A stretch of 64,000 bases of DNA from Gammaproteobacteria bacterium. Its GTDB lineage: Bacteria > Pseudomonadota > Gammaproteobacteria > Pseudomonadales > Azotimanducaceae. A program made the position numbers and the translations under genes. Below are positions 1 to 19,164 of the stretch, piece by piece. The stretch covers positions 372,001 through 436,000 of the forward strand of contig VXNY01000029.1 in the NCBI GenBank assembly GCA_009840305.1, written 5' to 3'. The notes beneath the pieces are model-generated. The model did not search any database. It was given only the letters and a program-made list of their open reading frames with translations, and had not been told where the DNA came from. Within the stretch, counting starts at the first letter, position 1; each line of letters opens with the position of its first letter.

Positions 1-1021
1 AGGGAATACTTGGGTACCAACCTGCTCGTTCTGGCGCGTTATTGGTATACAAACGTAGTGTCCCATTTGTTTGGACGACGCGTCGCCCGCGATGAATCAT
101 TGCTCGAATTACAGCTTTTTTGGGATGGTCTTTATCTTTCCTGTTTGCAGAAATGATTGCATTCAATTTAGGTCGTTCAATTTGACGAGGGAGCATCTCT
201 CCAAGCCATGTGTTCAATATACCAGAAGATAGATTTCTTCGTGAGCCATGATGCGGAACATGGAACCAATCTAATTCGGCCGTGGAAATGTTCAGGCGAG
301 TTGCCACCTGATGTGCTTCGGTTAGAGCTTTCACTCCTGCGTCTCCCGTTAGTAGTACTTTCTTATTGCAGACATGAGCAAATTGTACTATGCTGGTTTC
401 ATTTTCTTCGTTTGTTCCGACGGAGTCACCTTTGAGATTCTCCTCACCCCATTCAGCACTAGACTCAGATTTCGCAAACCTTGCTGTAGTCTTACCCACG
501 GGCGCGGGAGTCTTCTCAGACTGAACAATTAGATCGAGATACGCAGACTTCGATGGTGCCAAAACTGTAAACACACCGATATTGTTACCAGCAAATGTAT
601 CTTTAATTTCAATACCTCTCTGATGTGCGATCTCCTCCAATTCTGAAACGTGCGGAAAAGCTCTTTTCAGACGGGCAACGAGACGTTCTCGATCTTGAAA
701 GTTTTTGAATTTGGGCATCAATTCATCGACATGTTCCCACGGGCGATTCATACGTAGACAACCGACGTTGAAGTGTCTCAGTACGGCCTTTAATCCGGAA
801 GCATGATCTGTATCTGAATGTGTTAGTACTACAAAATTGATGGAGTATGGAACGTCATAGTAGTTTCGGATATGCTCCACCAATTTAGTTCCATCTTCTT
901 TGTATCCACCATCCACTACGTAAATCCAATCCACGTTCTTGTGCCGGTGTCGGATCGCGATTGCATCTCCACTACCTGTGTCCCCACATTCAATAAAGTC
1001 GATCTCTATAAAGTCAGGCAA
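1..1021 (-). CDS. MBL-fold hydrolase, ComEC/Rec2-like (partial, runs off left edge)
   Basis: On the - strand the frame is open from 1021 to the window edge, so only the N-terminal 340 residues or so are present. It carries the MBL metal motif T-H-S-D-T-D-H near residue 70, then LLTGDA and VPHHGS, the order seen in the ComEC/Rec2-type hydrolase domain; no membrane segments are visible. The frame has no ATG at its beginning. The only plausible start is TTG at 1021, preceded by GGAG with a 10-base spacer, and an in-frame stop lies not far upstream. It is divergent from the ubiquitin-like operon at 1717, which has two more MBL genes, so it may belong to the same defence island. The substrate is unknown; nuclease or nucleotide hydrolase activity is a guess from the fold. 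Confidence 0.8.
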   Translation of the reverse strand, partial: MPDFIEIDFIECGDTGSGDAIAIRHRHKNVDWIYVVDGGYKEDGTKLVEHIRNYYDVPYSINFVVLTHSDTDHASGLKAVLRHFNVGCLRMNRPWEHVDELMPKFKNFQDRERLVARLKRAFPHVSELEEIAHQRGIEIKDTFAGNNIGVFTVLAPSKSAYLDLIVQSEKTPAPVGKTTARFAKSESSAEWGEENLKGDSVGTNEENETSIVQFAHVCNKKVLLTGDAGVKALTEAHQVATRLNISTAELDWFHVPHHGSRRNLSSGILNTWLGEMLPRQIERPKLNAIISANRKDKDHPKKAVIRAMIHRGRRVVQTNGTLRLYTNNAPERAGWYPSIP

Positions 1022-1644
1022 GGGATGCTTGCTCCTTGTTGTAATTGATTCGATTGAACTATGCTGAGAATTCCGTATCCGTTTGTGTTTGTCGTCCCGT
1101 CATTCTCATTTAAGAACAAAAGCAAGTGAAATAGGAGAGTCTGCCAAACAAAACTGTAGCTAAACAATGCACTTATCATATACATATATATAATATTATT
1201 TTCGATTGGATCATTTGATTCACGCCTGGTGCAGTATTTACATTTTGCTGTTCAGAGTCTGTTTCACATTGGTCTAGGGAATGGATGTGTAATCGATAAC
1301 TACCGCTACTTGTTCTGTCGATTGATTTAACAAAAACTCTTTTTCACTCTATGCTGTAGGCTTAAAAATTTCGTTCTACACGGGCTATCTTCTCTCGTGC
1401 GGTCCATTTTGGTGTGCTCAGACTTGCATCCAATCCCAAGAGAGAGCCAAAATGGGCACCAAGAGAGTGTTGAGAGACATAGGAACAACGTGAGCATCGT
1501 ACCACTACAACATCAATCCGCCACAAACCCTTCCAAGTTCCGTAGTACAAAGGCGAAGAATCAATCCTGACGTTGTAAATCGTCGAAACCATAATAAATT
1601 TTTGTAGCTTCGTCTGTACGTATTGTATATAACAATTGTATTAA
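1022..1644. other. Divergent intergenic region
   Basis: About 620 bases separate the left-edge MBL gene from the promoter of the rightward operon. The centre (about 1165-1210) is very AT-rich with TATA-like runs and could hold the leftward promoter, but I cannot pick a convincing -35/-10 pair. A 76-codon reading frame on the - strand at 1362-1592 has one Cys-x-x-Cys pair and no ribosome site that I can defend; I do not call it a gene. Confidence 0.5.
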
Positions 1645-1674
1645 TTGCACATTTTAGTTAAAACAGTGTATAAT
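1645..1674 (+). promoter_or_regulatory. Sigma70-type promoter of the ubiquitin-like operon
   Basis: TTGCAC at 1645-1650 is followed after 18 bases by a perfect TATAAT at 1669-1674. Transcription would start near 1681, giving a 5' leader of about 36 bases before the ATG at 1717. It is the best promoter match I noticed in the window and places the small LGGEY peptide gene first in the operon. No obvious operator was seen. Confidence 0.65.
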
Positions 1675-1716
1675 TGAATTTGAAATGCAACAAAGATTAC
1701 CCAGAGAGGAGTCCTG

Positions 1717-1890
1717 ATGTCAAGAAAACCAACAATTCAAGAATTGGAACAGATTCTGGAGTCCGAAGAGGATACCCCAATCAAGATACTCCCAAATGGC
1801 GAGATTCGAGCTGATGGGGCTAGCGATCGCGAAGATACGGGTACCAAGAAGCCGTTAACTTTGAGAGAGGACCTCGGTGGAGAATACTAA
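1717..1890 (+). CDS. 57-residue peptide ending in LGGEY, candidate protein modifier
   Basis: This short gene starts at ATG 1717 behind a strong ribosome site (AGAGAGGAG, 5-base spacer), 43 bases after the -10 box, and stops at 1890, 8 bases before the first E2-like gene. The product is 57 residues, polar and acidic, with the central stretch IKILPNGEIRADG and the C-terminus TLREDLGGEY. Gly54-Gly55 followed by Glu-Tyr resembles a di-glycine tail with a short cap that the downstream JAB peptidase could trim before E1 adenylation. It is too short for a complete beta-grasp ubiquitin fold and looks more like the disordered Pup modifier (which ends GGQ/GGE), although no Pup ligase is present. The modifier role is inference from tail and position; an antitoxin or regulator is possible. 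Confidence 0.7.
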   Translation: MSRKPTIQELEQILESEEDTPIKILPNGEIRADGASDREDTGTKKPLTLREDLGGEY

Positions 1891-1898
1891 AAGAGAGG

Positions 1899-2282
1899 GT
1901 GGCTAGGGTGAATTTAGCAAGAATTCAAGACGAAATTGCAACTGCACGACAACACTTCGATTTTGTCGAGGGTCATTCCACCACTAGCGGGGGCGTGATG
2001 GTGCTGATCGCGTTACAGACAATCAAGCGTGTGTACACACTCAGTGTGTCCTTTCCAGAAAGTTATCCTAATGTCATGCCGAAAGTGCACGTCAGAAGAC
2101 CCATGCTTCAGTCGTCACCACACAGATTCTCGAACGACAGAATTTGCTTTCTTCATCCGACCATGTGGAACCCTGGGCGGCACAACTTGCTTTTTGTGAT
2201 ACAGCGTACCGCGAAGTGGTTAGCAAAGTACGAGGTATACCAGGAAACAGGAAATTGGCCTGGAGCGGGAATCGCCCACTGA
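1899..2282 (+). CDS. E2-like ubiquitin-conjugating-fold protein
   Basis: A 127-residue protein with the layout of prokaryotic E2-like domains: a beta-sheet half rich in V/L/I (residues 33-66) with SFPESYP, then HRF near residue 75, the candidate catalytic Cys83 in RICFLHP, Trp90-Asn-Pro-Gly, and the C-terminal helix WLAKYEVYQETGNWPG. Such proteins would take an activated modifier from E1 as a thioester. GTG 1899 is the longest start, but GTG at 1908 (residue 4) has better spacing from GAGAGGG and is an alternative. It lies 8 bases after the LGGEY peptide and 5 before the second E2-like gene, so the three are probably cotranslated. Activity is not proven, but the Cys is in the expected place. 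Confidence 0.8.
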   Translation: MARVNLARIQDEIATARQHFDFVEGHSTTSGGVMVLIALQTIKRVYTLSVSFPESYPNVMPKVHVRRPMLQSSPHRFSNDRICFLHPTMWNPGRHNLLFVIQRTAKWLAKYEVYQETGNWPGAGIAH

Positions 2283-2287
2283 TTAGC

Positions 2288-2815
2288 ATGCCGATTGAGT
2301 TTAAATCACTGTCGATGATGGCACTGCGAAGCAGTCCAGGCGAAGTTCTCGACGAGGTGTCCAGATATGGAGCAGCTTTCCTCATCGAGCGCAAAGGGCA
2401 ACAGAAGGCGTGTCTTGTTCCAATATCTCATTTTCTTCCCGATATTCAGACATCGCGGTTTACGACAGAGTTGGAACGACTTGCGGAAGCAAACGAACAC
2501 TATAAAGTTTCGATCAGTGAGAAAAATGAAATTCGGTTGCTCTTCAGAGAATTTTCAGCCGATTTCCCCATTGAGGTGACAGTACTGCTCCCACATGGTT
2601 ATCCGAGTAAAGCACCGGTAGTGTCCGCGTCTCCGATTGAGAAGGGTTGTCCACATCGATGGCCGAATGGAACTCTCTGTATTTACGGAGCAATGGCCGT
2701 GTGGAATCCAGGCAAGCACGACGTTATGCACACGATCGCATTATTCAGACGTTGGATTCAAAGATATACGGTGTGGCACAAGACGGGAGAATGGCCTCGA
2801 GGAGACGTGTTTTGA
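2288..2815 (+). CDS. Phd/YefM-like domain fused to E2-like domain
   Basis: Start is ATG 2288, five bases after the previous stop; an upstream extension of the frame overlaps the first E2 gene and is not credible. The 175-residue product has two parts. Residues 10-52 (LRSSPGEVLDEV, then IERKGQQKACLVPISHF) match the Phd/YefM antitoxin fold, normally a DNA-binding, toxin-neutralising dimer. Residues 56-175 form a second E2-like domain with HRWPNG, candidate catalytic Cys131 in LCIYG, VWNPGKH and a helix ending KTGEWPRG. Two E2-like proteins in one operon suggest either different partners or one catalytic and one scaffold subunit. The Phd-like part may autoregulate the operon or dimerise the E2; this is inference. 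It overlaps the E1 start by four bases (TTGA). Confidence 0.75.
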   Translation: MPIEFKSLSMMALRSSPGEVLDEVSRYGAAFLIERKGQQKACLVPISHFLPDIQTSRFTTELERLAEANEHYKVSISEKNEIRLLFREFSADFPIEVTVLLPHGYPSKAPVVSASPIEKGCPHRWPNGTLCIYGAMAVWNPGKHDVMHTIALFRRWIQRYTVWHKTGEWPRGDVF

Positions 2816-3666
2816 TTAGCGATAGGTTGTTCACGAGGATCGAGCGATTATTTGACGTAAAGGCATTCGCACAATTGTCGGTGATGATAGCGGGCTGTGG
2901 ATCTGGAGGTAGTCAGGTTGCACAATTCTTGGCTATGTCAGGATTGAGGAATTTTGTACTGGTGGACAACGATGAACTTCAGATTGAGAACGTTATTCGA
3001 CACGTGTGCGGAATCCGATACATTGGTTGGCGTAAAACTTCAGCGTTGGCCGACATCTTGCGAGATCGCAATCCACAAGTCGAGATCACGGAAATCGATC
3101 TAGATTTACTCAGTTGGAAAGGATTGCAAGAAACAATCAATAACGTCGACGTGGTCGTCGTCGGGACCGATAGTGAGTCTAGTCGTTATCGGTTGAATGA
3201 GGTATGTGTCGAAACTAACACCCCTTTCACCGTGGGGCGTGTATTTACTCGTGGGATTGGTGGTGAAGTTTATGCGTACCGACCTGCGAGAAGTGGATGC
3301 CTCGCCTGTTTGGAAGGCGTATTGGAGCGTACCCATTATCGTGAAGGAGTAAGAGAAGTTGATTTAGCAACTGATGAAGATCGCCAAAAGGTCTATGATC
3401 TTGAGATCGAAGAAATTAAAGATTCCCCCGGGTTGTCTGTAGATATTGGGTTCGTTGTAGCCTTCCATACTCGGTTTACGTTGGATGCACTTGGTAATGT
3501 TGCGACGATTCGCCCCAAATTCCTGACGCCCATTGACGAAAACTACTTAGTGTGGGCCAATCGTGCTGTACCTCCTTTTTCAAGAAATTTCCAATTACAG
3601 AGGATGACACTGCTACCCCAAGAAGATTGCATGGTCTGTGGAGGACTAAATGAACTCAAAGAATAA
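2812..3666 (+). CDS. ThiF/E1-like modifier-activating enzyme
   Basis: A 284-residue ThiF-family adenylating enzyme with the minimal E1 layout. The nucleotide-binding loop GCGSGGS is at residues 28-34, acidic VDND at 51-54 ends strand two, and EN-VIRH at 59-64 gives the conserved Asn and Arg. Zinc ligands are probably Cys163/Cys166 (CLAC) and Cys273/Cys276 (CMVC). It should adenylate the C-terminal glycine of a modifier, possibly pass it to its own cysteine and then to E2. I choose TTG 2812: GAGGAG lies 7 bases upstream and the start overlaps the E2 stop as TTGA. An in-frame ATG at 2791 has no ribosome site. The stop overlaps the JAB start by 17 bases, so translation is coupled. Confidence 0.85.
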   Translation: MISDRLFTRIERLFDVKAFAQLSVMIAGCGSGGSQVAQFLAMSGLRNFVLVDNDELQIENVIRHVCGIRYIGWRKTSALADILRDRNPQVEITEIDLDLLSWKGLQETINNVDVVVVGTDSESSRYRLNEVCVETNTPFTVGRVFTRGIGGEVYAYRPARSGCLACLEGVLERTHYREGVREVDLATDEDRQKVYDLEIEEIKDSPGLSVDIGFVVAFHTRFTLDALGNVATIRPKFLTPIDENYLVWANRAVPPFSRNFQLQRMTLLPQEDCMVCGGLNELKE

Positions 3667-4591
3667 TTTACGTTCGATTCGATTGGAGATTTCAGCTGGC
3701 GTATTACAGAGTGTCTTCGACGAATGCGATCGGTACGACCATCATGAAACTGGTGGACGGTTGGTAGGTCACTATGAGTTGAAAAACGATACCCTTGTGG
3801 TACAGGCAAATGGTTTGTTGCCAGCAGGACCTAAGGCAAAACGGTCCCAAACAAGTTTCTTCCAAGACGGAGAATTTCAAACACGAATGTTCAGGCAACT
3901 GGAAGAACAAGATCCTACGATCGAACACCTCGGAAATTGGCATACCCACCATGTGAATGGATATCCAACACTGAGCGGTGGCGACATTGCCACCTACCAA
4001 CGCATCGTCAATCACGAGTTTCACAACTTAAACTTCTTTTATGCGCTACTTGTAACCAGGAAACTCAAAGGACGGACTGGATTAGATCGCTATGTTGTAC
4101 GGCACTTCCTTCTGTTTCGTGATGACGAAAACGTGTACGAAGTCGAACCGCGAGATGTCCACATTACCAAGGGATACGTCGCCTCGCTAAGCAGTGTTGC
4201 GCTCACCGAAGAGGAAGCGACATCGGAGACAGCTCAACACAATGAACCGAAGGGTTCAATCGCCGTTCGTGCGCTTGATCAAGCTATTTTGAAAGTTTTG
4301 TATCCCTCGTTAAAACCCCGTTTGTCAAAACGTACCGGAACGTTCTTCTGGAAAGGTAATGTGGTGCTAATAGACGGATCTGTCGCAGCGGTGAAAGCCA
4401 TTGAAGTTGAAAGTGAAGACGAGTTGGTTTATTACCCCGTAGTTTCTAATGTTTCCAATGAGATAACGAAGTTATGTGAGTCTCCCTATAAGAGTGCGGT
4501 AGAAGCAGTACGAGCGTTGGAAGTGTCGATGAACAAAGAGCTATATACGTCTGCTACTCAGAATCGATTTTGGAATATATGGAAGCGCTAA
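3650..4591 (+). CDS. JAB/JAMM-family metallopeptidase
   Basis: This 313-residue protein carries a full JAMM zinc site: Glu33 in HETGG, His98 and His100 in GNWHTHH, Ser109 and Asp112 in LSGGD. In bacterial E1/E2 systems JAB peptidases process the modifier precursor or remove it from targets; the obvious candidate substrate here is the peptide ending GGEY. The peptidase domain occupies about the first 165 residues. The remaining 145 are unassigned and include a stretch (LSKRTGTFFWKGN) that could bind a partner. It starts inside the E1 gene and overlaps the next MBL gene by 13 bases. The family is certain; deconjugase or processing activity is inferred from the complete metal site. Confidence 0.88.
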   Translation: MNSKNNLRSIRLEISAGVLQSVFDECDRYDHHETGGRLVGHYELKNDTLVVQANGLLPAGPKAKRSQTSFFQDGEFQTRMFRQLEEQDPTIEHLGNWHTHHVNGYPTLSGGDIATYQRIVNHEFHNLNFFYALLVTRKLKGRTGLDRYVVRHFLLFRDDENVYEVEPRDVHITKGYVASLSSVALTEEEATSETAQHNEPKGSIAVRALDQAILKVLYPSLKPRLSKRTGTFFWKGNVVLIDGSVAAVKAIEVESEDELVYYPVVSNVSNEITKLCESPYKSAVEAVRALEVSMNKELYTSATQNRFWNIWKR

Positions 4592-5403
4592 CACTTTACG
4601 TTGGTCAAGGTAATTTTGCGGTTCTACGTCATGGAACGGAGTCGATTGCAGTCGACACAAAGTGGAACGCGGAGTCGGAAGAGAAAATTGAATCACTGGT
4701 GAACCGGTTTCTTGCGAACCGCACTTTAATTGGTGTAGTGCTCACAGGACTAGACGCGGATCACGCGGATCCGAAAGGACTTGAATGGCTTTTGGAACAT
4801 CACGAACCAGCTTGGGTGATGTATCCGAAGTACTTTAAGGACACCGACAACGCAAAGTCGGTGTTCAACGTCATTCGGAAATTTGAGCGAAGACGGGAGA
4901 ATACTTCGAATCCACTGAAGCGAGTGTCCGTACGTCTTGATCAAATGAATAAAAGGAATCTTGATGGTTTGTCGGTCGAATTTGGTCTTGAATTGTTTTC
5001 ACCGCACACAGAGGACATGGACAACTCCAATAACTGTAGTATCGTCTTGAAGGTGGAAGGTGTTGGGGACGATGGATTCGCATACTTGATTACTGGGGAC
5101 ACTGAAAATTCTAGATGGGATAGGATAGTTGAGCTATTCAATAGGGCTTTGGCAGCGGATGTATTGGCTGCACCTCACCATGGTTCCAAGAACGCTGCGC
5201 ATCCAGGTATGGTTCTGGCGGTAGAGCCCGATACGGTCTTAATTAGTGCTGGAATCGACAATCAGTATGGACACCCCGACCCAAGTGCGGTTGCAGTGTA
5301 TGAACGTGTTGCAAAGCACGTCTTTACGACGAATATACGAGGAGGAGTCTCATGGCTTACGATATGTGAGGGTATTGAGATTCTGACCGGAGAGGCGACC
5401 TAA
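4579..5403 (+). CDS. MBL-fold protein with degenerate metal motif
   Basis: A 274-residue ComEC/Rec2-like MBL protein. The usual T-H-x-D-x-D-H motif reads T-G-L-D-A-D-H at residues 56-62: the first metal-binding His is Gly57, while Asp59, Asp61 and His62 remain. Later LITGDTE, APHHGSKN and GHPDPS are intact. It may bind a single metal or act as a non-catalytic sensor, in contrast to the canonical MBL gene just downstream. ATG 4579 lies inside the JAB gene; TTG at 4570 in the same frame is an alternative. It closes the first operon, and 132 bases without a gene follow. Its role is unknown: nuclease, phosphodiesterase and immunity or sensor roles fit the fold equally. Confidence 0.8.
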   Translation: MEALTLYVGQGNFAVLRHGTESIAVDTKWNAESEEKIESLVNRFLANRTLIGVVLTGLDADHADPKGLEWLLEHHEPAWVMYPKYFKDTDNAKSVFNVIRKFERRRENTSNPLKRVSVRLDQMNKRNLDGLSVEFGLELFSPHTEDMDNSNNCSIVLKVEGVGDDGFAYLITGDTENSRWDRIVELFNRALAADVLAAPHHGSKNAAHPGMVLAVEPDTVLISAGIDNQYGHPDPSAVAVYERVAKHVFTTNIRGGVSWLTICEGIEILTGEAT

Positions 5404-5535
5404 AGCATGCTCACTTTCCCTGTACGCGATAGTGGTCGCAACTTCGCGAGAAGAGAGTGTAGCTGGTTCAGAGGCTGGGATTCGTCGACGATATTCTCAG
5501 TCAAGATTTGTTTACTTAAAGAATGAGGAAAAATT

Positions 5536-6651
5536 ATGCCCAGAGTTAAGTTCTATCCAGTAGGCAACGGAGATTGCAGCCAGATTGTACTAGCAAACAA
5601 GAAACGATTGTTGTTTGACTTCTGTCATCGTCGAAACGCAGAGGACGAGGACGATCCGAGGATTGATCTGCATGCAACATTGAGTGACGAATTAAGGGCA
5701 GCTGGACGGAAGCACTTTGAAGTCGTTGCACTGACTCACCTTGACGACGATCACATCGCGAAGAGCACAGAATTCTTTTACCTCGAGCATGCTAAAAAGT
5801 ATCAAGATGAGGACCGAAAGAAAATCAATCAACTTTGGGTACCTGCAGCAGCGATCTTGGAGAAGGGCTTGACAGGTGAGGCAGCTGTATGGAGAAGTGA
5901 AGCCCGACATCGATTAAAGAACGGTCAAGGCATCCGCGTGTTCTCTAGGCCCTCCAACCTCAAAGATTGGCTTGAGTCAGAGGGTCTATCGTTGACGGAC
6001 CGTGAACATCTCATTACAGACGCCGGACAACGCGTGCCAGGATTTGATTTAGGAAAAGACGGTGTCGAGTTTTTCGTGCACTCACCGTTCGCCAAGCATG
6101 CTGACGATCAGACGATTTTGCGAAATGAAAGCGCGATCATACTTCATGCGACATTTGAAGTGGATAACCGAAAGACAAGATATTTGATTGTAGGAGATTC
6201 GACTTGGGAGATTCTTGAAGAGATCGTTGATATTACCCGGAACAAAAAACGTGATGTACGGTTACAGTGGGACATCTACAATGTGCCTCACCATTGCAGC
6301 TACTTAGCTCTTGGTCCAAAAAAGGGCAAGGAACAGACTAAACCTGTAGTTAATGTACAGTGGTTGTTGGACCAATGTCAAAAAGGTGCGATTGCAGTGT
6401 CTTCCTCAGGTCCAATTCCAAGTACTGACACTAATGATCCACCGCACCGACAAGCAGCGAGTACATACCGCAAAACCATAACAGACAACAACGGGCACAA
6501 GTTTGTCGTAACTATGGAATACCCAAACGTGAAAAAACCAAAAATTCTCGAAGTAGAAATCGGTGGGCGCGGCGCGGTACTGAAAACTCTAAGTGTGGTG
6601 GGGGTATCTTCCTTAGTTAGAAGTAGTACCCCTCGAGCTGGTCATTTATGA
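5536..6651 (+). CDS. MBL-fold hydrolase, ComEC/Rec2-like (canonical motif)
   Basis: A 371-residue MBL protein with an intact metal motif THLDDDH (His68, Asp70, Asp72, His73), a GDST turn and VPHHCS, in the ComEC/Rec2-like arrangement. There is no signal peptide or membrane segment, so it is probably cytoplasmic. The ribosome site is GAGG, 7 bases before ATG 5536. The stop overlaps the start of the E2-E1-JAB fusion as ATGA, so the two are translationally coupled. An MBL next to the conjugation enzymes here mirrors the module just upstream. The substrate is not predictable from sequence; nucleic-acid or nucleotide hydrolysis is the usual expectation for this subfamily. Confidence 0.83.
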   Translation: MPRVKFYPVGNGDCSQIVLANKKRLLFDFCHRRNAEDEDDPRIDLHATLSDELRAAGRKHFEVVALTHLDDDHIAKSTEFFYLEHAKKYQDEDRKKINQLWVPAAAILEKGLTGEAAVWRSEARHRLKNGQGIRVFSRPSNLKDWLESEGLSLTDREHLITDAGQRVPGFDLGKDGVEFFVHSPFAKHADDQTILRNESAIILHATFEVDNRKTRYLIVGDSTWEILEEIVDITRNKKRDVRLQWDIYNVPHHCSYLALGPKKGKEQTKPVVNVQWLLDQCQKGAIAVSSSGPIPSTDTNDPPHRQAASTYRKTITDNNGHKFVVTMEYPNVKKPKILEVEIGGRGAVLKTLSVVGVSSLVRSSTPRAGHL

Positions 6652-8876
6652 ATTGCTTTCAATTGGATGGCGACCCAATTGATGCAAAAGCACTGAAGCT
6701 CGCAGGAGCGAAAGAAGTTAGAGATGCGTTAGCTTGGTATCCCTTCGCTCAATTGAAAGAGGTGCGCGCATACGAGAGTTCTAGCCTCTGTGTAGAAGCA
6801 GTCATCTTTGAAATCGAACCCGAATTACCTCAGGACCGAGAGTACGACATTCGATCAATCGAATTGATTGCTACTGTGTTTAGCTCTCATAAGGGAGATT
6901 CTCCGGAAGTGTTAGCATTACGTAAGGATTTCCCATGGGTTCCACACCTGTTTTCGACACCTGCGAATAGTCCTAAACATCTCTGCTTGTACGAGGACAC
7001 TTGGTCAGAAGTAAAAAGTAAATGGACAGGAGCTGGTTTTTTGGGAAACATTGCACAATGGCTATCACGTACGGCAAAAGGTGAATTGCATACTGAAGAT
7101 CAACCTCCGGAACCATTTCTATACACAAGTGCAAACATTGTCGTGTTCCCAGAAAGTGTATTCAAGGCCGACGAAATAGATACAACGTACGTCGGGACAA
7201 TCGTACAAGGATTCCGAAGACCTCCCTATACACTGAAGCTTCAGCGGTTTAGCGACAAAACTCCATCGGATGTTCGAAGAGTGTTCTGTGCCGCCACCCA
7301 AGGCACGCCGATAGGACAAGGTGCAATTCGAAATTGTCCTCGGACCGTGTCAGAATTGAATTCGACCCTCCGAGAAGTCGGGATTGATCTTTGGTCAATT
7401 CTTGGAGATCGCGTGAAGTCGTGGTACTCTCTTGAAGAGCCTCCTCACAAGGAAGACAGCGTTGTCGTGCTGGTGCGAATACCACGTCTCGGGGGAAAAT
7501 CTGGGCGCGAGGAGTCTGTGGAACATCTTGCGTTCATATTAGCCCCGATAGAAGAGTTAGCTTTGGCTACGGGCAGAACTGCTTACTCATCATTGGGTGC
7601 TCCACTAAAGCCGTTGGCGGCTGGAGTGGTCGTTGAAGCTCTAGCAAGTGAAGTGTCTGTAATACCCCTGAGAGCAATTCAATATCTTGATAGAACGAGG
7701 GCAAAAGCGGTAAGCGGTTTAGATGTTCATAGTGGAGATTTAAAGATTGTGTTGGTGGGTGTGGGTGCGTTAGGTTCTCAAATTCATAACAATCTTTCTC
7801 GAATGGGATGGGGATTCTGGTCGCTGATCGATAAGGATATGTTTCTACCCCACAACGCCCCAAAACATCGACTAGGATCGGATGTTGTCGGTCGACCGAA
7901 GGTCTTCGCAACTGAGGGATTAAGCCTCATTGAGACACCGTACAACAAAATTGTTCGAACATTCATTGCCGACGCGCAAGAAGTAGAAGATGTGGATGAG
8001 ATGCTCGAGACATATCGTGAATGTGACTTGATACTCGACGTGTCGACATCCATCGCGGTCTCAAGATTTCTTGGACGAGAATTAGACAGTCAAGCCCGTC
8101 GCGCATCGCTTTTTCTAAACCCAACCGGTCAGGATGCTGTAATGTTGATGGAGGATAGTAAGCGCACGGTGACACTAGATTCTCTTGAAGCTCAATATTA
8201 CCGATCTGTACTACGATTTAAGAGTATGCAAGCCCACATTCGCCAGAGTGAGTTAGTCCGATATAGTAGTGGTTGCCGAGATGTTACAACTCGGTTAGCA
8301 CAAGACGATTTGGCATGGGCAGCTGGACTGTTATCTCGTCAAGTTCGGACTGTTGGAATGGAAGCCTCAGCTACCGTGTGGCAAAGACAGGTGGATGGTT
8401 CTGTGAATCGAATCGCAATTCCTGTCTCCAACGTTATTCGATCAGAATCTGAAGGATGGACTGTGGTACTTAACGAAATTGTGGTGTCAGAGATGTCTTG
8501 TTTACGAACTATGCGTTTACCGGCTGAGACAGGTGGAGTCCTAGTAGGATATTTCGATAATCCAAGTCGATACATCTACATCGTGGATGCTTTATCAGCA
8601 CCGGTTGACAGTATTGAGCACAAGGATACTTTTGTTAGAGGATGTGCCGACTTAAAAGAGACTCTTAAAGAGATTGAGGCACGTAGCGGAGGTCAAGTGA
8701 GGTATGTCGGTGAGTGGCATTCGCATCCTGACGGTGTTCCTGTGCGTCCAAGTCAAGCAGACGAGAAATTACTCTCGACAATTGCTGGTGAAGTTCGTGT
8801 AGACGGCTTGCCTGGTCTGATAATTATTGTTGGCGAAAACGGTTGCGTTGGTGTGCACTTGCGCTTGCTGCCTTAA
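6648..8876 (+). CDS. E2-E1-JAB triple fusion of a ubiquitin-like conjugation system
   Basis: A 742-residue protein that joins three activities. Residues 1-150 are E2-like, with candidate catalytic Cys113 in KHLCLYEDTW followed by WLSRTAKGELH. Residues 150-350 form a linker without a family I recognise. Residues 363-570 are ThiF/E1-like with GVGALGS at 371-377 and LIDKD at 393-397. Residues 600-742 are a JAB domain with a full JAMM site: Glu627 in ETGG, His691 and His693 in EWHSHP, Ser702, Asp705. In type II CBASS the E2-E1 enzyme Cap2 and JAB protein Cap3 are separate and act on a CD-NTase; here they are one chain and no CD-NTase is visible. The start overlaps the MBL stop (ATGA), and patatin follows after 3 bases. 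Confidence 0.88.
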   Translation: MNCFQLDGDPIDAKALKLAGAKEVRDALAWYPFAQLKEVRAYESSSLCVEAVIFEIEPELPQDREYDIRSIELIATVFSSHKGDSPEVLALRKDFPWVPHLFSTPANSPKHLCLYEDTWSEVKSKWTGAGFLGNIAQWLSRTAKGELHTEDQPPEPFLYTSANIVVFPESVFKADEIDTTYVGTIVQGFRRPPYTLKLQRFSDKTPSDVRRVFCAATQGTPIGQGAIRNCPRTVSELNSTLREVGIDLWSILGDRVKSWYSLEEPPHKEDSVVVLVRIPRLGGKSGREESVEHLAFILAPIEELALATGRTAYSSLGAPLKPLAAGVVVEALASEVSVIPLRAIQYLDRTRAKAVSGLDVHSGDLKIVLVGVGALGSQIHNNLSRMGWGFWSLIDKDMFLPHNAPKHRLGSDVVGRPKVFATEGLSLIETPYNKIVRTFIADAQEVEDVDEMLETYRECDLILDVSTSIAVSRFLGRELDSQARRASLFLNPTGQDAVMLMEDSKRTVTLDSLEAQYYRSVLRFKSMQAHIRQSELVRYSSGCRDVTTRLAQDDLAWAAGLLSRQVRTVGMEASATVWQRQVDGSVNRIAIPVSNVIRSESEGWTVVLNEIVVSEMSCLRTMRLPAETGGVLVGYFDNPSRYIYIVDALSAPVDSIEHKDTFVRGCADLKETLKEIEARSGGQVRYVGEWHSHPDGVPVRPSQADEKLLSTIAGEVRVDGLPGLIIIVGENGCVGVHLRLLP

Positions 8877-8879
8877 CGA

Positions 8880-10004
8880 ATGAAGCTCGCACTAGCACTT
8901 TCAGGGGGTGGCATCCGTGCTGCAGCATTTCATTGTGGGGTGCTACAACGACTAGCTTTAAACGATTTGTTAGAGAAAACGACGTTTGTTTCCTCAGTTT
9001 CAGGTGGTAGTCTTGTCGTCGGTTTAATCCTATGCAAAAACGGACTCCAATGGCCAGGGAGTGATGAGTTTCTGAATAGAGTGCTACCTCGCGTTCGAAA
9101 GTGTCTAACGACATCTACGCTACAGTGGTCTTATGCTTGGCGGTCGTTTGTATTACCCTGGCGATTAATCAGAGGTCGAGCACACATCTTGGCGAAGCAA
9201 TTAGAAAGACAGTGGGGAGTACAGGGAACAATCCAAAATATCGAACCTCAACCACGTTGGATTGTGAATGCTACTTGCTTCGAGACAGGAAGAAATTGGA
9301 GATTCGATCACAAGCGAATGGGCGACTATATCACACAGTATGTGATACGCCCAAACATACCAATTGCTTCCGCAATCGCAGCATCAGCCGCAATGCCTGG
9401 TTTAATTGGTCCGCTAATTATTCGATCAAACGACTACGAATGGTATAGATACGAAGGTAAAGAACTTCGAAGTACTACACCTGTTGCAAAACGGTATGAA
9501 CTTTGGGATGGTGGTGTGTACGACAATCTTGGTGTAGAACCACTATTCAAACCAGGTGGTGGTTTCCGAGACGGTTTTGACTTTTTACTAGTGAGTGATG
9601 CATCTTCACCTCTAGAGTTAGATCCTCGAACGCTTAGACGAATGATCAAACCAATTCACCGAACCATGCGATTAATAAACATTGCAACGGAGCAAATTCG
9701 AGGATTGCGGGCTCGCACCGTTGTCTCTGACTTCGCGACAGGTCGTAGTTTGGGCGCTTACTTACGTATTGGGAATACAGTCGAGGACATTTTCAGTGCT
9801 AGCGGAGAGGTAGTTCCAGAATTTTCATACTTAAGCCCTACCGAAGTAAAACAAGCGAGTACGTTTGCTACTACTCTCAGGCGGATAAGTCCTTCTGAAT
9901 TTGATCTGCTAATGCAACACGGGTTCGAGGTCGCAAATGCTACTCTTGCTACAAGACAAAAAGACTTGTTCAAATTTTTGAAGAATTCATCTCGTCAACG
10001 ATAG
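8880..10004 (+). CDS. Patatin-like phospholipase, likely effector
   Basis: A 374-residue patatin-like lipase with all expected elements: the oxyanion loop SGGGIR at residues 8-13, nucleophile Ser41 in VSGGS, and the Asp-Gly-Gly of the catalytic dyad at 210-212 in LWDGGVYDNLG. Patatins hydrolyse membrane phospholipids, and the CapV effectors of CBASS belong here, killing infected cells. It starts 3 bases after the E2-E1-JAB fusion, so it is the natural effector of that module. Unlike CapV its activation cannot be by a cyclic nucleotide made here, since no cyclase gene is present; modification by the conjugation module is a possible switch (inference). It is convergent with the restriction gene, 39 bases away. 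Confidence 0.85.
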   Translation: MKLALALSGGGIRAAAFHCGVLQRLALNDLLEKTTFVSSVSGGSLVVGLILCKNGLQWPGSDEFLNRVLPRVRKCLTTSTLQWSYAWRSFVLPWRLIRGRAHILAKQLERQWGVQGTIQNIEPQPRWIVNATCFETGRNWRFDHKRMGDYITQYVIRPNIPIASAIAASAAMPGLIGPLIIRSNDYEWYRYEGKELRSTTPVAKRYELWDGGVYDNLGVEPLFKPGGGFRDGFDFLLVSDASSPLELDPRTLRRMIKPIHRTMRLINIATEQIRGLRARTVVSDFATGRSLGAYLRIGNTVEDIFSASGEVVPEFSYLSPTEVKQASTFATTLRRISPSEFDLLMQHGFEVANATLATRQKDLFKFLKNSSRQR

Positions 10005-10043: not shown

Positions 10044-13000
10044 CTACGCTAGTTCGATCTCTGCACTCATTTTCTTATGAATTTTTAGAGGTGGCATCGA
10101 CTTTTGAATCTCAAGAGTTTTAATACCGACAGTGATGGCTTTCTTTAGGAGTTTTAGGGGATAGGCAGGATCATTCATGGTTTCGATTGCAAAGTCATTG
10201 GCATCGTTAACGATACCACTTGCCTTATGCGTGGACACTCTCTGACGATCCATTATCCAACCGACGCAACTCTTACCACTAACTTTGAAATCATAAGCTA
10301 CATCGGGGATTCCAGAGATCGTCAGCCATTCGTTATATCGAATGGTCGAAGTATCGTTTCTTTGTGGAAATCTCATTTTTTTAATACGGTACCTATCTAT
10401 ATCGTCGATGCTGTTTAGAAAGTCGTTGTCGATCCAATTTTCGACAACCGGATATTCTTCGGCTTGCTCGTATTCAACATGTAAATCCGCGAGAAGACGA
10501 CCGCATTCTGCAAATTCTAGGAATTCCTCCACCGTTGCGACGGCTGGGATTCGCGGCAGATCTTTTTGTAAGTTCGAATTGAAACGTTCAATAAACTCAA
10601 TACTGTGAAGGATTCCATATACGTAATAGAAACACTGTTCATAGCCTATATTTATCGTGGGATAGAACGATCGGAGGAGTGCGAGACCGCCACCGGTATT
10701 TTCTGTTCTTGCTTTGGGATTGTTTTTGAATATTTGATGAGACTCATCGCCAACAGCATTAAATGTTGAAAGTGGGTAACAATTCGTTCCTTCACTCAGC
10801 AAGTGAAGATCGGCCGGACGGTTTACCTGCCAAAAACTTGGTGAGTGGGCTCGAGTCGAACAGATCATTCGATTATCTCTGTCCTGTACGTCGAAGAACT
10901 GCGGCATCTTACCGATTCTCGTGATTAGGTTAGGGTCAAAATAACACCAGACTTTGGTAAATGGTCGATATTCAACAACACGAAGCAGGTTGGGATTGAC
11001 GCGTAGTTCTTTCCCAAGTACTAACCGCTGTAGAAGTTCAGAGTTCCACGCAATCTTGGTTCGATCCTGTTGCACGAACTCCTTAACTGACGGTGTATTT
11101 TGGAATCCCTTGTACCTAGCCAGTTCACTATTAAAAAAGTCGGATGATATCTCAATGTTCTTCCTTAATTGGGTTTTGCTAAAGTTGTAAATCCATGCGT
11201 CCCGATTCGTAGAAAGACCTAAACTACCGTTTCGGAACACCGAGGGAGAGTCGCCCGATTTAGTAGGAATCAAAGGGATGAATTTGAAAAATGTTTGGTT
11301 CCTGTGGTCAATCCAATCATGAACATGATTCGGCTTAATCTGCTTTAAAGGGGTGTTCACAACACTTCTGAATTCTTTCAATTTATCGAGTTTTTGATTC
11401 CGTTTCAGATAGTCCCCGATGTCGTGATAATGGATCTTTGTAGTTTCGAGACCGGTGTCGTTTTTCACAAGAAACGTAATCGTTATCGCGGATCGACTGG
11501 CCGCACCGAATACGTTCTGAGACTCTTTTCGACCTCTTTCTCCCTGTGTTTTTGTGTTTCCTCTAAGATTTACTGTGTAAATGTGGGAAAATTCTTTTTC
11601 AAAGCAAGCACGAATACCAGATGCAGCGTTTCCATCCAACCATCCCGCACCTGTCACAAATCCAACGATACCTCGTTCACCAAGGCGATCTGATGCCCAA
11701 CGAAAAGCTCGAACGTAGCTGTCGTACAGACTATTTGTCAGAGTGGCATTGGATGCTTCTACGTATGTGCTAGCAATTCTCGCGTCGAGAGTAGGATAGC
11801 GAACGTTTTGAGCATTGTCTCCCGCCGACTTCTGACCCCTCGAGTATGGGGGATTTCCTAGAACAACCGTTAAGGGCAAGTTTTGTTGAAACTCGATTCT
11901 CTCGTAGTTGAAAGGAAAAATGCCTTTAAGTTGATTCTCTTGTTCAGCACTTTGAAAGGTGTCTTGGAACACAATCCTCTCGTACGGTTCGTAAGTTCCA
12001 TTCTCTGCACCACGAATGTCATGGTAGACCGCTTCAATATTGATACCTGCTACGTAATAAGCAAGCAGCACAATCTCATTCGCGTGAATTTCCTTCTCAT
12101 ATTTCCGTCGTAGATCTTCAGGTCGGATAATGCCCGACTGAAGCAAACGGGTAATGAATGTACCGGTACCTACAAAGGGATCAATGATGTGCACATCCTT
12201 GTTGCTCATACTTGTTTGAAAGTGCTTGTTTAAAAGGTTTTCGATCGAATGAATCATATAGTCGACGATTTCGACTGGTGTAAATGCAATTCCTAACATA
12301 TCTGTAGTACGCCGGAAAGCCTTACGGAAGAACTTGTCGTAAAGTTCTTTCACTAGCTGTTGCTTCGCGCCAGCAGTTTTCGTTCCTTTGATTCGCCATT
12401 TCACTTCATCATAGAAATTCTGAAGGGACTCGGTTTCTTTATCGAGACTTCGTTTGTCCAAGTCATTGAGCACTTTTTCCATCGCGATGGAGACAGAATT
12501 CTGTTTGATAAACTCGTGTCCTTCAAAGAGTGCGTTGAACACGGGTCGTGTGATAATGTGTTGAGCTAACAATTCGATCGCTTGTTCTTGAGTAACCGAA
12601 GGATTTAGGTCATCTTGTAGCTCTGCGAGAAAGTCATGGAAAACAGCTTGACTGTGTTCATCAGTTTCTAATGCTGTACGAATCCTCGTAATTTGAGTTT
12701 GAGCAATTTTTCCAACATCATGTGCCCAATCTGCCCAATACGACATACGCCCGACTTTGCGAACGATTTGTGCAAAAACCGCGGATGAAAACTCCTGAAC
12801 CATGGCATCCTGTAAGTCAAAAGGAAGCTCATCTTGGTCATCGCCATTCTTTTTTCCATTTCCAGTTCCGGTTTCACCTCCACTTCCGGTCTGCTGGCGT
12901 AGCATACCGCTTGCCGTCTCTGGCAAACCAATAAAGATTCGTCCAGAATCTTCCCCCTCTAGTTGAAGCCTATTGATCTCGGCTTCTAATCTCTCATCGT

Positions 13001-14912
13001 GAGAACGTAACGCATTCAATATTTGCCAGACAGTATCGTAGGTTTTGTTATCCTTTAGAGACTCTACTGGATTCTTACCAGCAGGAATGGCAACTGGTAG
13101 TACGACATACCCGTATTTCTTACCAGGTGCGCGTCGCATTACTCGACCTACGGCTTGTACGACATCAATTTGACTCTTGCGGGGATGGAAAAATACGATC
13201 GCGTCTAGAGAAGGAACATCAACTCCTTCTCCTAAACATCGAACGTTGCTTAATATTCGAAGCTCATTTTTATTTGGTTCGTCACCGAGCCACGATAATC
13301 GATTGTTTCTCTCATGCGCACCAGCGGTACCATCTATGTGCTTTGTTGAACAGTCGAAATTCAGTTTGCCATTCTCTGAATCCGGGTTGTCGTGCGCGAG
13401 TTCTTGCACAATGCGGTTAAATTCTCTGCTGATAATTTCAGAATTCTTGATAGTGTTGCAGAAAGCGAGCGCTCGTCTAGATGGTTCGGCATCTCCTACA
13501 AACTCTTCCGCACGATCTGGACCCGGATCTTTCATCAAGGCTTTGTAGCAGCCAACGATTTTTGTCGCGTCGTCGAGTTTAATATCGCTATCATCGGACT
13601 CCAAGATGTTTTGGAGAGCATTGCTAATCGTTTGTTCGTCGAGAGCTAATACAATCACTCGATAGTCTGATAACAATTCGTTTTCGACCGCCCAAGCAAA
13701 ACTCTTGTAAAACAGAACATTCCCAAACTGTTCAGGGTTGTCCATTGAGCAAAGGGTGATCGCACCCTCTGCAGCTTTTGATTTAGAGGACGTGGTATAT
13801 ATTCTTGGAGTAGCGGTCATATACAGTCGTTTTCGACTTCGAACATATTCAGCATCGTGGACTCGAACGAACATCGACGCTTCTTCTTCCTTTCCTTTGT
13901 CGAATTGACCTGTCGTACGATGCGCTTCGTCGCACACTATGAGATCGAAGTTAGGTAACCCATGCTCATGTTGTGCAGCATGGACTACTTCAATTGAGTG
14001 GTAAGTACCGAACACAACCGTTATTGCGGAGGGCGCATCAGAACTAGCTTTGTTCGCGAGATTCGCAGCATCAGTAGTAGGCGGAATCTTGAGTTCAGAA
14101 GGGGTTAACTGGATCACATCATCTGAACTACGTCCGCGTCGTCCTACCTCTGAATCAGAGCACACCGAATAACTTCTAAGCTGTACTGTAGCATCAGCAT
14201 GCCACTCTCGAATCATCTGGGACATTAGAGCTAATGATGGCACCAGTACCAAGACTCTCTTACCAACACCGAACAGTTTTTCAGCAACCAACAGGCCTGT
14301 GTAAGTCTTACCGGTACCACATGCCATGATGATCTGTCCGCGATCAGCCGAGTCAAATCCCTCACGGACTTTTTCGACCGCTTCGAGTTGATGTGGTCGA
14401 GGTTCCTTCGGTTTACGGCGACACTTCTCTCCGCGATCGATAAAAGAGTCCCAATCCACCGTGCTCTCAACAAGATCTTTTACTCGAATGTGAGTGATTT
14501 GTCTTCTATCGACAACTTCTTGGAAGTGAGGGCTTGGGTCTACTTCGGTAGTATCAATGAAGATTAACGTCTTAAATCCTTGACTGTCTGCGGTAGTGTA
14601 AAACGAATCAATGTCTTTTTTCTGCAACTTGTAGCTCTTCTGTCTACACTTCGCTTGAATGGCTGCAAAGCCGTTTCCTTGACCATCTTTCACCCTGGCA
14701 ACTAAGTCGATACCAACGTCCTTTATCGACTCTTCTTCTCTGTGCTTTCTGACCCAGTCTTTCCACGACGTCGCTTGCGTGTACACCTGCTGCATTTGCG
14801 AATCGTGATTGAAATACACTTGCACGATCTCTTCAAAGCGGTCTCCCACATCTTTTTCCGAGCGCTTTGCGTCTCGAATTTCATCCAATAATTCAAAAAA
14901 ACTTGTGGTCAT
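10044..14912 (-). CDS. Type ISP single-chain restriction-modification enzyme (LlaGI-like)
   Basis: A 1622-residue protein with nuclease, translocase, methyltransferase and recognition parts in one chain, about the size of LlaGI and LlaBIII. Residues 1-150 are an Mrr-like nuclease (Asp69, then Gln86-Ala-Lys88 in AIQAKC). Residues 165-640 are a superfamily 2 helicase with CGTGKT at 195-200, DEAH at 325-328, TATPR at 363-367 and motif VI QAVGRVMRR at 583-591. A coupler follows. The N6-adenine methyltransferase has DPFVGTGTF at 908-916 and NPPY at 1017-1020. The last 400 or so residues should be the target recognition domain. Such enzymes methylate one strand of an asymmetric site and cut when translocating complexes collide. 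The gene looks intact and self-sufficient, and is convergent to the patatin gene. Confidence 0.9.
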   Translation of the reverse strand: MTTSFFELLDEIRDAKRSEKDVGDRFEEIVQVYFNHDSQMQQVYTQATSWKDWVRKHREEESIKDVGIDLVARVKDGQGNGFAAIQAKCRQKSYKLQKKDIDSFYTTADSQGFKTLIFIDTTEVDPSPHFQEVVDRRQITHIRVKDLVESTVDWDSFIDRGEKCRRKPKEPRPHQLEAVEKVREGFDSADRGQIIMACGTGKTYTGLLVAEKLFGVGKRVLVLVPSLALMSQMIREWHADATVQLRSYSVCSDSEVGRRGRSSDDVIQLTPSELKIPPTTDAANLANKASSDAPSAITVVFGTYHSIEVVHAAQHEHGLPNFDLIVCDEAHRTTGQFDKGKEEEASMFVRVHDAEYVRSRKRLYMTATPRIYTTSSKSKAAEGAITLCSMDNPEQFGNVLFYKSFAWAVENELLSDYRVIVLALDEQTISNALQNILESDDSDIKLDDATKIVGCYKALMKDPGPDRAEEFVGDAEPSRRALAFCNTIKNSEIISREFNRIVQELAHDNPDSENGKLNFDCSTKHIDGTAGAHERNNRLSWLGDEPNKNELRILSNVRCLGEGVDVPSLDAIVFFHPRKSQIDVVQAVGRVMRRAPGKKYGYVVLPVAIPAGKNPVESLKDNKTYDTVWQILNALRSHDERLEAEINRLQLEGEDSGRIFIGLPETASGMLRQQTGSGGETGTGNGKKNGDDQDELPFDLQDAMVQEFSSAVFAQIVRKVGRMSYWADWAHDVGKIAQTQITRIRTALETDEHSQAVFHDFLAELQDDLNPSVTQEQAIELLAQHIITRPVFNALFEGHEFIKQNSVSIAMEKVLNDLDKRSLDKETESLQNFYDEVKWRIKGTKTAGAKQQLVKELYDKFFRKAFRRTTDMLGIAFTPVEIVDYMIHSIENLLNKHFQTSMSNKDVHIIDPFVGTGTFITRLLQSGIIRPEDLRRKYEKEIHANEIVLLAYYVAGINIEAVYHDIRGAENGTYEPYERIVFQDTFQSAEQENQLKGIFPFNYERIEFQQNLPLTVVLGNPPYSRGQKSAGDNAQNVRYPTLDARIASTYVEASNATLTNSLYDSYVRAFRWASDRLGERGIVGFVTGAGWLDGNAASGIRACFEKEFSHIYTVNLRGNTKTQGERGRKESQNVFGAASRSAITITFLVKNDTGLETTKIHYHDIGDYLKRNQKLDKLKEFRSVVNTPLKQIKPNHVHDWIDHRNQTFFKFIPLIPTKSGDSPSVFRNGSLGLSTNRDAWIYNFSKTQLRKNIEISSDFFNSELARYKGFQNTPSVKEFVQQDRTKIAWNSELLQRLVLGKELRVNPNLLRVVEYRPFTKVWCYFDPNLITRIGKMPQFFDVQDRDNRMICSTRAHSPSFWQVNRPADLHLLSEGTNCYPLSTFNAVGDESHQIFKNNPKARTENTGGGLALLRSFYPTINIGYEQCFYYVYGILHSIEFIERFNSNLQKDLPRIPAVATVEEFLEFAECGRLLADLHVEYEQAEEYPVVENWIDNDFLNSIDDIDRYRIKKMRFPQRNDTSTIRYNEWLTISGIPDVAYDFKVSGKSCVGWIMDRQRVSTHKASGIVNDANDFAIETMNDPAYPLKLLKKAITVGIKTLEIQKSMPPLKIHKKMSAEIELA

Positions 14913-19086: not shown

Positions 19087-19127
19087 ACAGGTTTGCTACA
19101 TAAACCTGTTTAATTGAGATTTTTTTC
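19087..19127 (+). terminator. Rho-independent terminator or attenuator before the TIR gene
   Basis: ACAGGTTT (19087-19094) pairs perfectly with AAACCTGT (19102-19109) across a 7-base loop, and a run of seven T follows near 19121. It lies just upstream of the TIR gene's ribosome site. It ends any transcript entering from the left, or acts as an attenuator for the TIR gene. Confidence 0.6.
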
Positions 19128-19164
19128 TCGGATACCAATCGGTTTAATCAAACTAAGGAGACAC

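Follow-up and report, generated by a model that had tools for sequence, protein, structure and literature searches.

A peptide of 57 residues opens a conserved operon of E2-, E1- and JAB-type genes within the 64,000-nucleotide stretch of gammaproteobacterial DNA analysed here (the window), and is best explained, with little more than even confidence, as the dedicated, non-β-grasp substrate or modifier of that enzyme cassette, a putative role. This reading is drawn from the combination of intact-looking E1, E2 and JAB proteins with one small partner, in which the Gly-Gly pair near the C-terminus is constant and the far end is variable. The operon is arranged as peptide–E2a–E2b (Phd+RWD)–E1–JAB–MBL, followed by either a patatin phospholipase or a protein with 3–4 transmembrane (TM) segments, which confirms the succession of two E2-like genes, one E1-like gene and one JAB gene given in a preliminary description made from the sequence alone (Table 1). 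It appears to be a bacterial ubiquitin-like conjugation operon that is set apart from the Pup, Bil, Bub and CBASS systems.

Table 1. Positions in the window of the peptide gene, its sequence elements, the operon and the neighbouring genes
Feature	Position	Strand	Remarks
Divergent MBL-fold gene, PADLOC PDC-M48B	2-1021	-	Directly upstream of the operon
Promoter-like site TGCACA-17-TATAAT	1646..1674	+	10/12 matches; 5′ of the peptide gene
57-residue peptide gene	1717..1890	+	ATG start; product ends TLREDLGGEY
N-module of the peptide, PTIQELEQIL..PIKILPNGEIR	within 1717..1890	+	
C-module of the peptide, KKPLTLREDLGGEY	within 1717..1890	+	
E2a, E2/UBC-like	1908..2282 (alternative GTG 1899)	+	PADLOC E2 4.9e-12; invariant Cys
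E2b, Phd/YefM-like N-terminal domain and RWD/E2-like domain	2288..2815	+	
E1/ThiF-like adenylating enzyme	2812..3666	+	TTG start; ThiF 1.1e-29
JAB/JAMM protease with C-terminal extension	3650..4591	+	Pfam 24.4 against a cut-off of 25 bits; PADLOC JAB
MBL2, ComEC-like metallo-β-lactamase fold	about 4579..5403	+	Sixth core gene; partial metal site TGLDADH, APHHGS
6A-MBL MBL-fold protein	5536..6651	+	NF058524, 404 bits against a cut-off of 220
6A-MBL Cap2_3 protein, E2-E1-JAB fusion	6648..8876	+	NF058523, 566.9 bits against a cut-off of 320
Patatin-like phospholipase, likely effector	8880..10004	+	PF01734 6e-20
Type ISP/IIG restriction-modification enzyme	10044-14912	-	Single chain, 1622 residues
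TIR + STAND-type NTPase	19114-21780	+	PADLOC candidate PDC-S60 (1.9e-99); ThsB-like TIR

The reading frame of the peptide is present as first described, and comparison across genomes indicates that it is a real, conserved gene. A good Shine-Dalgarno sequence (agaGAGGAGtcctg) lies 5′ of its ATG, in agreement with the strong ribosome site that had been claimed. As for the promoter that had also been assigned to it, the 10/12 site is there and is a plausible candidate, and is called no more than plausible because such sites are no commoner in positions 1–8000 of the window than in shuffled sequence (7 found, 10.2 expected, sd 3.2).

The AlphaFold2 model of the peptide, based on 25 sequences, consists of a helix (residues 7–15) and two strands (22–24 and 30–32) that form a small hairpin, followed by a low-confidence tail that is probably disordered (mean pLDDT 68.6, pTM 0.26; block means of 62, 55 and 55 for residues 31–57). 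A β-grasp fold, which takes about 70–100 residues, is absent from this model, consistent with the earlier view that 57 residues are too few for a ubiquitin fold. The peptide has no Pfam match at E≤1 and no significant match among solved structures (best E 0.99).

Among plasmids, tblastn with the peptide identified one homologue, in Mesorhizobium sp. AR10, whose 57-residue product shares 61% identity with that of the window and opens the same operon order, patatin included; this copy was first recovered by the peptide, and the same locus was also the top E1 match. A collection in which each of 84,980 species is represented by a single genome (genome_contigs) was searched with E1 and JAB joined as the query, using the patterns EIEEIKD and GNWHTHH, and recovery was uninfluenced by conservation of the peptide because both patterns lie in E1 and JAB. 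At least 15 loci were found, all in metagenome-assembled genomes (MAGs) titled Gemmatimonadetes or BD2-11, Binatia, Holophagales, Bryobacterales, Acidobacteriaceae, Sulfotelmatobacter, Alpha-, Gamma- and unspecified Proteobacteria, planctomycete, Armatimonadetes and "bacterium". Among the matches listed, a peptide with LGGEY lies directly 5′ of E2a in all 14 of these loci that have their upstream end; the fifteenth, L022, is cut at JAB and falls outside this count. With the window and Mesorhizobium added, the LGGEY peptide directly precedes E2a in 16/16 operons, and the Gly-Gly pair, on whose invariance in homologues beside ThiF and E2 genes the preliminary description laid weight, is kept in 14/14 of the loci recovered without bias and 16/16 overall among the matches listed. 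A query of genome_contigs with the peptide by itself gave no match. Two different copies of the operon are present, on separate contigs (L010, L012), in a single Binatia MAG (G437).

The 14 homologues that could be aligned along their length, namely that of Mesorhizobium and 13 of the 14 from the E1/JAB search, are 55–74% identical to the window peptide. The one omitted, L015, has a damaged N-terminus, such that its N-terminal third is no longer readable and ILPNGEIR and KPLTMRENLGGEY are retained. Across the resulting 15 operon copies, which again leave out L015, the invariant residues are M1, I7, L10, E11, L14, E17, I22, I24, L25, P26, N27, G28, E29 and R31 in the N-terminal half and K45, P46, T48, E51, L53, G54, G55, E56 and Y57 in the C-terminal part. 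Nothing follows the Tyr in 4/16 copies (the window, L002, L014 and L015), and 2–7 unrelated, variable residues follow it in the other 12; this variable extension of 0–7 residues resembles those of modifier precursors and was counted in favour of the substrate reading.

The codons for Leu-Gly-Gly-Glu-Tyr differ synonymously among copies, so selection acts on the protein. In 78 pairs from 13 of the 16 operons (L012, L015 and L020 being omitted because a gene is missing, cut or damaged), the core of the peptide has the highest mean pairwise identity of all the products, 67.7% compared with 62.1% for E1, 55.3% for E2a, 54.9% for MBL2, 51.4% for E2b and 44.9% for JAB. That the frame is a chance ORF, or a leader conserved for the translation of E2a, would suit its shortness and its frequent overlap with the E2a start codon (ATGA), but is hardly credible against conservation at the protein level with synonymous codon change and against the presence of the same protein in phage contigs that have no E2a match.

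The peptide also keeps the company of its operon in whole genomes. In samples of 38, 297, 346 and 385 genomes, which took in those with a previously identified operon, strong peptide matches numbered 1, 2, 2 and 2, all of them in operon genomes, and this restriction was likewise counted for the substrate reading. Across 15 operon genomes or records, one copy is present in 13, two in G437, which holds two operons, and none in G448, whose operon is cut. A weak match in a further genome, G996, has neither peptide motif and was dropped.

The enzymes encoded downstream look competent, as far as their conserved residues can indicate, at E2a, at JAB and at the adenylation site of E1. The Pfam matches of E2a, E2b, JAB and MBL2 lie below Pfam's own cut-offs, and the assignments of E2a and JAB therefore rest on the PADLOC E2 and JAB models and on conserved motifs. 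E2a, whose start is better placed by the family alignment at GTG 1908 than at GTG 1899, has an active-site Cys (C83, numbered from GTG 1899) that is invariant in 16/16 copies, and the JAMM motif of JAB (E33, H98-T-H100, S109 and D112) is equally invariant in 16/16. The E2-type Cys of E2b is present in 12/15 aligned copies and replaced by Ser in 3. In E1, the GCGSGG motif, D52, R63, K75 and D120 are invariant in 14 aligned sequences (the frameshifted L002 and the split L020 being omitted), as is a set of four Cys residues (163/166/273/276; 14/14) that is a probable zinc site. One operon, L020, has no detectable E2b and an E1 spread over two ORFs, and some operons are thus decaying or carry sequence errors. 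The frameshifted Mesorhizobium E1 (L002:7890-8898) may likewise reflect an inactive copy or an error in the record.

The predicted E1 structure (mean pLDDT 83.5, pTM 0.85) matches ThiF, UBA5, MccB and MoeB in Foldseek. ThiF and UBA5 carry their catalytic Cys in the crossover loop. That of ATG7 sits in the same loop, according to a published account (PMC12355090). In the 14 operon E1 sequences the stretch from position 167 to 272 lacks a conserved Cys, L021 being the sole one with a Cys there, at 217, and a classic E1 thioester is for this reason doubtful. A further Cys, C66, is invariant just after the conserved R63-H64, outside the crossover loop; that it stands in for the catalytic Cys, or that the adenylate passes straight to E2a, are guesses. 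The earlier proposal that E1 activates the peptide agrees with the intact adenylation residues and is qualified by the crossover loop that lacks a conserved Cys.

MccB is an adenylating enzyme that acts on a short peptide, and it is the first match of the operon E1 among solved-structure sequences (E 3e-19), followed by MoeB (6e-17), both ahead of ThiF. This match was counted for the substrate reading. Taken with the lack of a conserved crossover Cys, it would also fit a scheme in which the peptide is a precursor that E1 turns into a peptide-nucleotide, the reaction of MccB on MccA in the microcin C7 pathway, where an E1-like enzyme has a short peptide as its substrate. We regard this as very improbable: the MccB-MccA pathway is not known to include an E2 or JAB, and the scheme leaves no evident place for the E2a with its active-site Cys or for the JAB that are present here, the N-terminal half of the peptide is as strongly conserved as its tail, and no transporter or nucleotide-tailoring family was detected among the ten window genes scanned.

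In the substrate reading that we favour, docking onto the enzymes would fall to the helix-hairpin at the N-terminus of the peptide and to its KPLT-x-RE-x-L motif, and JAB would cleave within or just past LGGEY, most likely after Gly-Gly. The exposed carboxylate would then be adenylated by E1, and the Cys of E2a would receive the peptide and attach it to a target, an attachment that JAB could undo. The outcome would license a membrane-acting effector, either the patatin or the TM protein, to act against phage, and an orphan LGGEY protein of a phage would jam the system as a decoy substrate. Cleavage, activation, conjugation, the target, the anti-phage activity and the decoy role are all steps that we infer. 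The preliminary description had JAB trimming Glu-Tyr from the end; the protease itself looks intact by its JAMM motif, but Glu-Tyr is as invariant as Gly-Gly, and simple trimming is thereby insufficient as an account.

Copies of the peptide occur outside the operon, in phage contigs. When IMG/VR was searched with the aligned peptides, under two patterns that do not include GGEY (ILPNGE[IV]R; KP[LI]T[ML][RQ]E[DN]), 16 contigs were recovered, of which 14 (12 distinct) encode both modules and two (L037, L038) the N-module only. The latter proteins (L037:4122-4289 and L038:6998-7396; KPTI-ELEK, ILPNGE[IV]R) have no LGGEY tail. A second scan of IMG/VR added L062, in which a Phd/YefM-like domain (PF02604, 3.4e-6, slightly below the cut-off) is followed by KPLTFREDLGGEYAQ; the protein (L062:4920-5138) thus joins an LGGEY tail to the domain class that also forms the N-terminus of E2b. 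From this exchange of modules, with the C-module on a Phd domain in L062 and the N-module standing by itself in L037 and L038, it follows that KPLT-x-RE-x-LGGEY is a separable unit. A scan of DNA with the pattern T-x-RE-x-LGGEY, which misses L030 and L036 as their RE differs, returned 13 contigs, all already known. A Phd match in Prauserella has no LGGEY and was set aside. In one phage contig, a 356-residue ORF (L029:6995-8065) has LGGEY internally, far from its C-terminus; a stretch resembling a signal peptide and almost 300 more residues come after it in frame.

The total comes to 15 IMG/VR phage contigs with LGGEY, 13 of them distinct. Gly-Gly is retained in all 31 loci that have the C-module (16 operons and 15 phage contigs), and Glu-Tyr is invariant in the phage copies too. 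No ThiF was found in 17 phage records (the 15 with LGGEY plus L037 and L038; possibly fragments), with the L008 genome positive as the control, and a single weak JAB match below the cut-off was seen in one phage record with the same control. The operon E1, JAB and E2a had no match in the 17 whole phage records, in a comparison that had no positive control and on records that may be fragments. An E1-based viral scan gave no match, and the peptide of one phage contig had none at E≤1 in the phages collection. In a tree of the peptide, the best split that contains phage copies only has 32% support. The orphan copies, on 15 contigs with no ThiF match, and the internal motif of L029 were counted against the substrate reading.

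Among 30 chosen phage proteins searched against PHROGs, many are terminase, portal, scaffold and capsid proteins, and 7/12 distinct full-module loci (L024, L026, L029, L031, L032, L035 and L036) have the peptide among head or packaging genes or no more than about 3 kb from them. Such positions are what would be expected if the peptide were a bait that mimics a phage protein, serving the enzymes as a sensor or guide, with the phage copies then representing the primary function. We hold this to be improbable, as some of the remaining phage copies lie near replication genes or an integrase, as 15 IMG/VR contigs with the motif are few for a general trigger, and as the gene does not belong to the core head genes of the P22-like group. 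In the P22-like contigs L026 and L029, the peptide gene follows the portal gene and precedes the scaffold gene, in L026 together with a second small gene. In four P22-like relatives, examined from among 230 records whose portal is related, the scaffold gene, or in its stead a gene or open frame about 300 codons long, lies less than 80 bases behind the portal gene, and the peptide gene and its motifs are absent at the portal in 4/4, by annotation and motif check. A role as a core head gene was accordingly rejected for the P22-like group, in which the absence from relatives marks the peptide as accessory cargo.

The invariance of Glu-Tyr was also counted against the substrate reading, as it is no less suggestive of binding than of cleavage, and, together with the occurrence of the motif alone in phages, it makes a non-covalent inhibitor the main rival. 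On this account LGGEY would be a linear motif through which the peptide non-covalently binds and restrains one of E1, E2b, JAB and MBL2, and phage copies would lock the off state in the manner of an antitoxin tail. Tails of the Phd/YefM domain class neutralise toxins, and the presence of the C-module on such a domain in L062, the same domain at the N-terminus of E2b, the orphan copies in phage contigs that have no ThiF match, the E1 without a conserved crossover Cys and the strict pairing of Glu-Tyr with Gly-Gly all speak for this alternative. It would, however, leave E1 and E2a with no evident substrate in the operon, and Gly-Gly in 31/31 loci is what is expected of a processed modifier beside E1, E2 and JAB; the phage copies, moreover, are unchanged at Gly-Gly and so bear no signature of a dead inhibitor. 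We consider this account rather unlikely, and retain the substrate reading, with which the phage copies may also agree: LGGEY is complete across unrelated phages, as would suit binding in the same pocket, and the orphan copies are perhaps decoys that jam the E1/E2/JAB system.

The operon resembles several known systems in part. Pup ends in GGE or GGQ and is joined by PafA through the side chain of its last residue. The likeness to Pup that had been proposed extends to size, a mostly disordered chain and Gly-Gly-Glu near the end, but fails at the defining C-terminus, which here is GGEY or GGEY plus 2–7 residues in 16/16 operons; the accompanying enzymes are E1, E2 and JAB instead, and no PafA/Pup ligase family was found among the ten window genes scanned. 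Bil (bacterial ISG15-like) and Bub (bacterial ubiquitination-like) operons encode E1, E2 and JAB proteins together with a small β-grasp ubiquitin-like (Ubl) substrate. They thus share with the peptide operon both the enzymes and a small substrate gene, but the gene in question here encodes a 57-residue peptide with no predicted β-grasp, and no Ubl family match occurs among the ten window genes scanned.

In CBASS, the Cap2/Cap3 cassette of E1, E2 and JAB proteins conjugates the non-β-grasp cGAS through its C-terminus (PMC10097602), a precedent that was counted for the substrate reading. Type II CBASS is alike in the action of E1, E2 and JAB on the C-terminus of a non-β-grasp protein, in its patatin effectors of the CapV type and in its anti-phage context. 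It differs in having a CD-NTase beside Cap2 and Cap3, whereas the scan of ten window genes found no CD-NTase, and its substrate is a nucleotidyltransferase ending in Gly or Ala, in contrast to the candidate 57-residue LGGEY peptide; the peptide operon also has separate E1 and E2 genes and an extra Phd-RWD E2b and MBL.

The 6A-MBL anti-phage system of NCBIfam is built from similar parts, E2, E1, JAB and MBL (compare operon row 6a of Iyer 2006), but has E2, E1 and JAB fused in a single chain, and its two-protein definition includes no peptide. The peptide operon is not itself 6A-MBL, since its E1 and JAB score 59.4 and 53.1 bits against the NF058523 cut-off of 320, and its own MBL2 likewise falls well short of the 6A-MBL cut-offs. 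Relatives of the 6A-MBL pair adjoin the peptide operon in 4/16 cases (the window, L008, L009 and L017). In the window the pair (5536-8876) lies between the MBL2 and patatin genes and might share the peptide. Four distant plasmid E1 matches (Bradyrhizobium, Paenibacillus, Hymenobacter and Phaeobacter), examined out of 419 records, belong by annotation to other ThiF operons. In Iyer 2006, operon rows 6a–6e comprise E1-E2-JAB clusters with MBL or Ubl partners, and section 14 names no cluster with an LGGEY peptide or a Phd-RWD E2b (PMC1779556). A search of the open-licence literature, a scope that leaves out most subscription papers and preprints, found no publication on the LGGEY peptide.

The surroundings of the operon point to a role in immunity. 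The gene content of the window is that of a defence island (Table 1), the PDC-M48B match being 1e-121 for a full-length gene (L087:5972-7021). Abortive anti-phage systems combine a conserved core with membrane-acting effectors. Within the stretches examined, a patatin gene is near 10/16 of the peptide operons (8 on the same strand, 2 on the opposite), and in 5/16 there is instead, immediately behind MBL2, a protein of 222–275 residues with 3–4 hydrophobic segments; L012 is cut before the effector position, and L022, the seventeenth locus, has the TM type. The defence island and the membrane effectors suggest that the peptide operon is probably an anti-phage system.

It is a tentative possibility that the operon represents a new class of ubiquitin-type conjugation, in which a short non-β-grasp modifier carries an internal LGGEY and phages bear orphan copies of it, in some cases grafted on other domains, as decoys that poison the enzymes. 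If the substrate reading is true, E1-E2-JAB chemistry would need neither a ubiquitin fold nor a large carrier, and a peptide with a conserved tail would suffice. To our knowledge, this would be the simplest such modifier, and one that also occurs in phages. The orphan phage copies would then constitute a testable prediction of an arms race and a pointer to the step that phages attack. As a defined six-gene system with two interchangeable types of effector, the operon would offer a test-bed for the role of conjugation in bacterial immunity.
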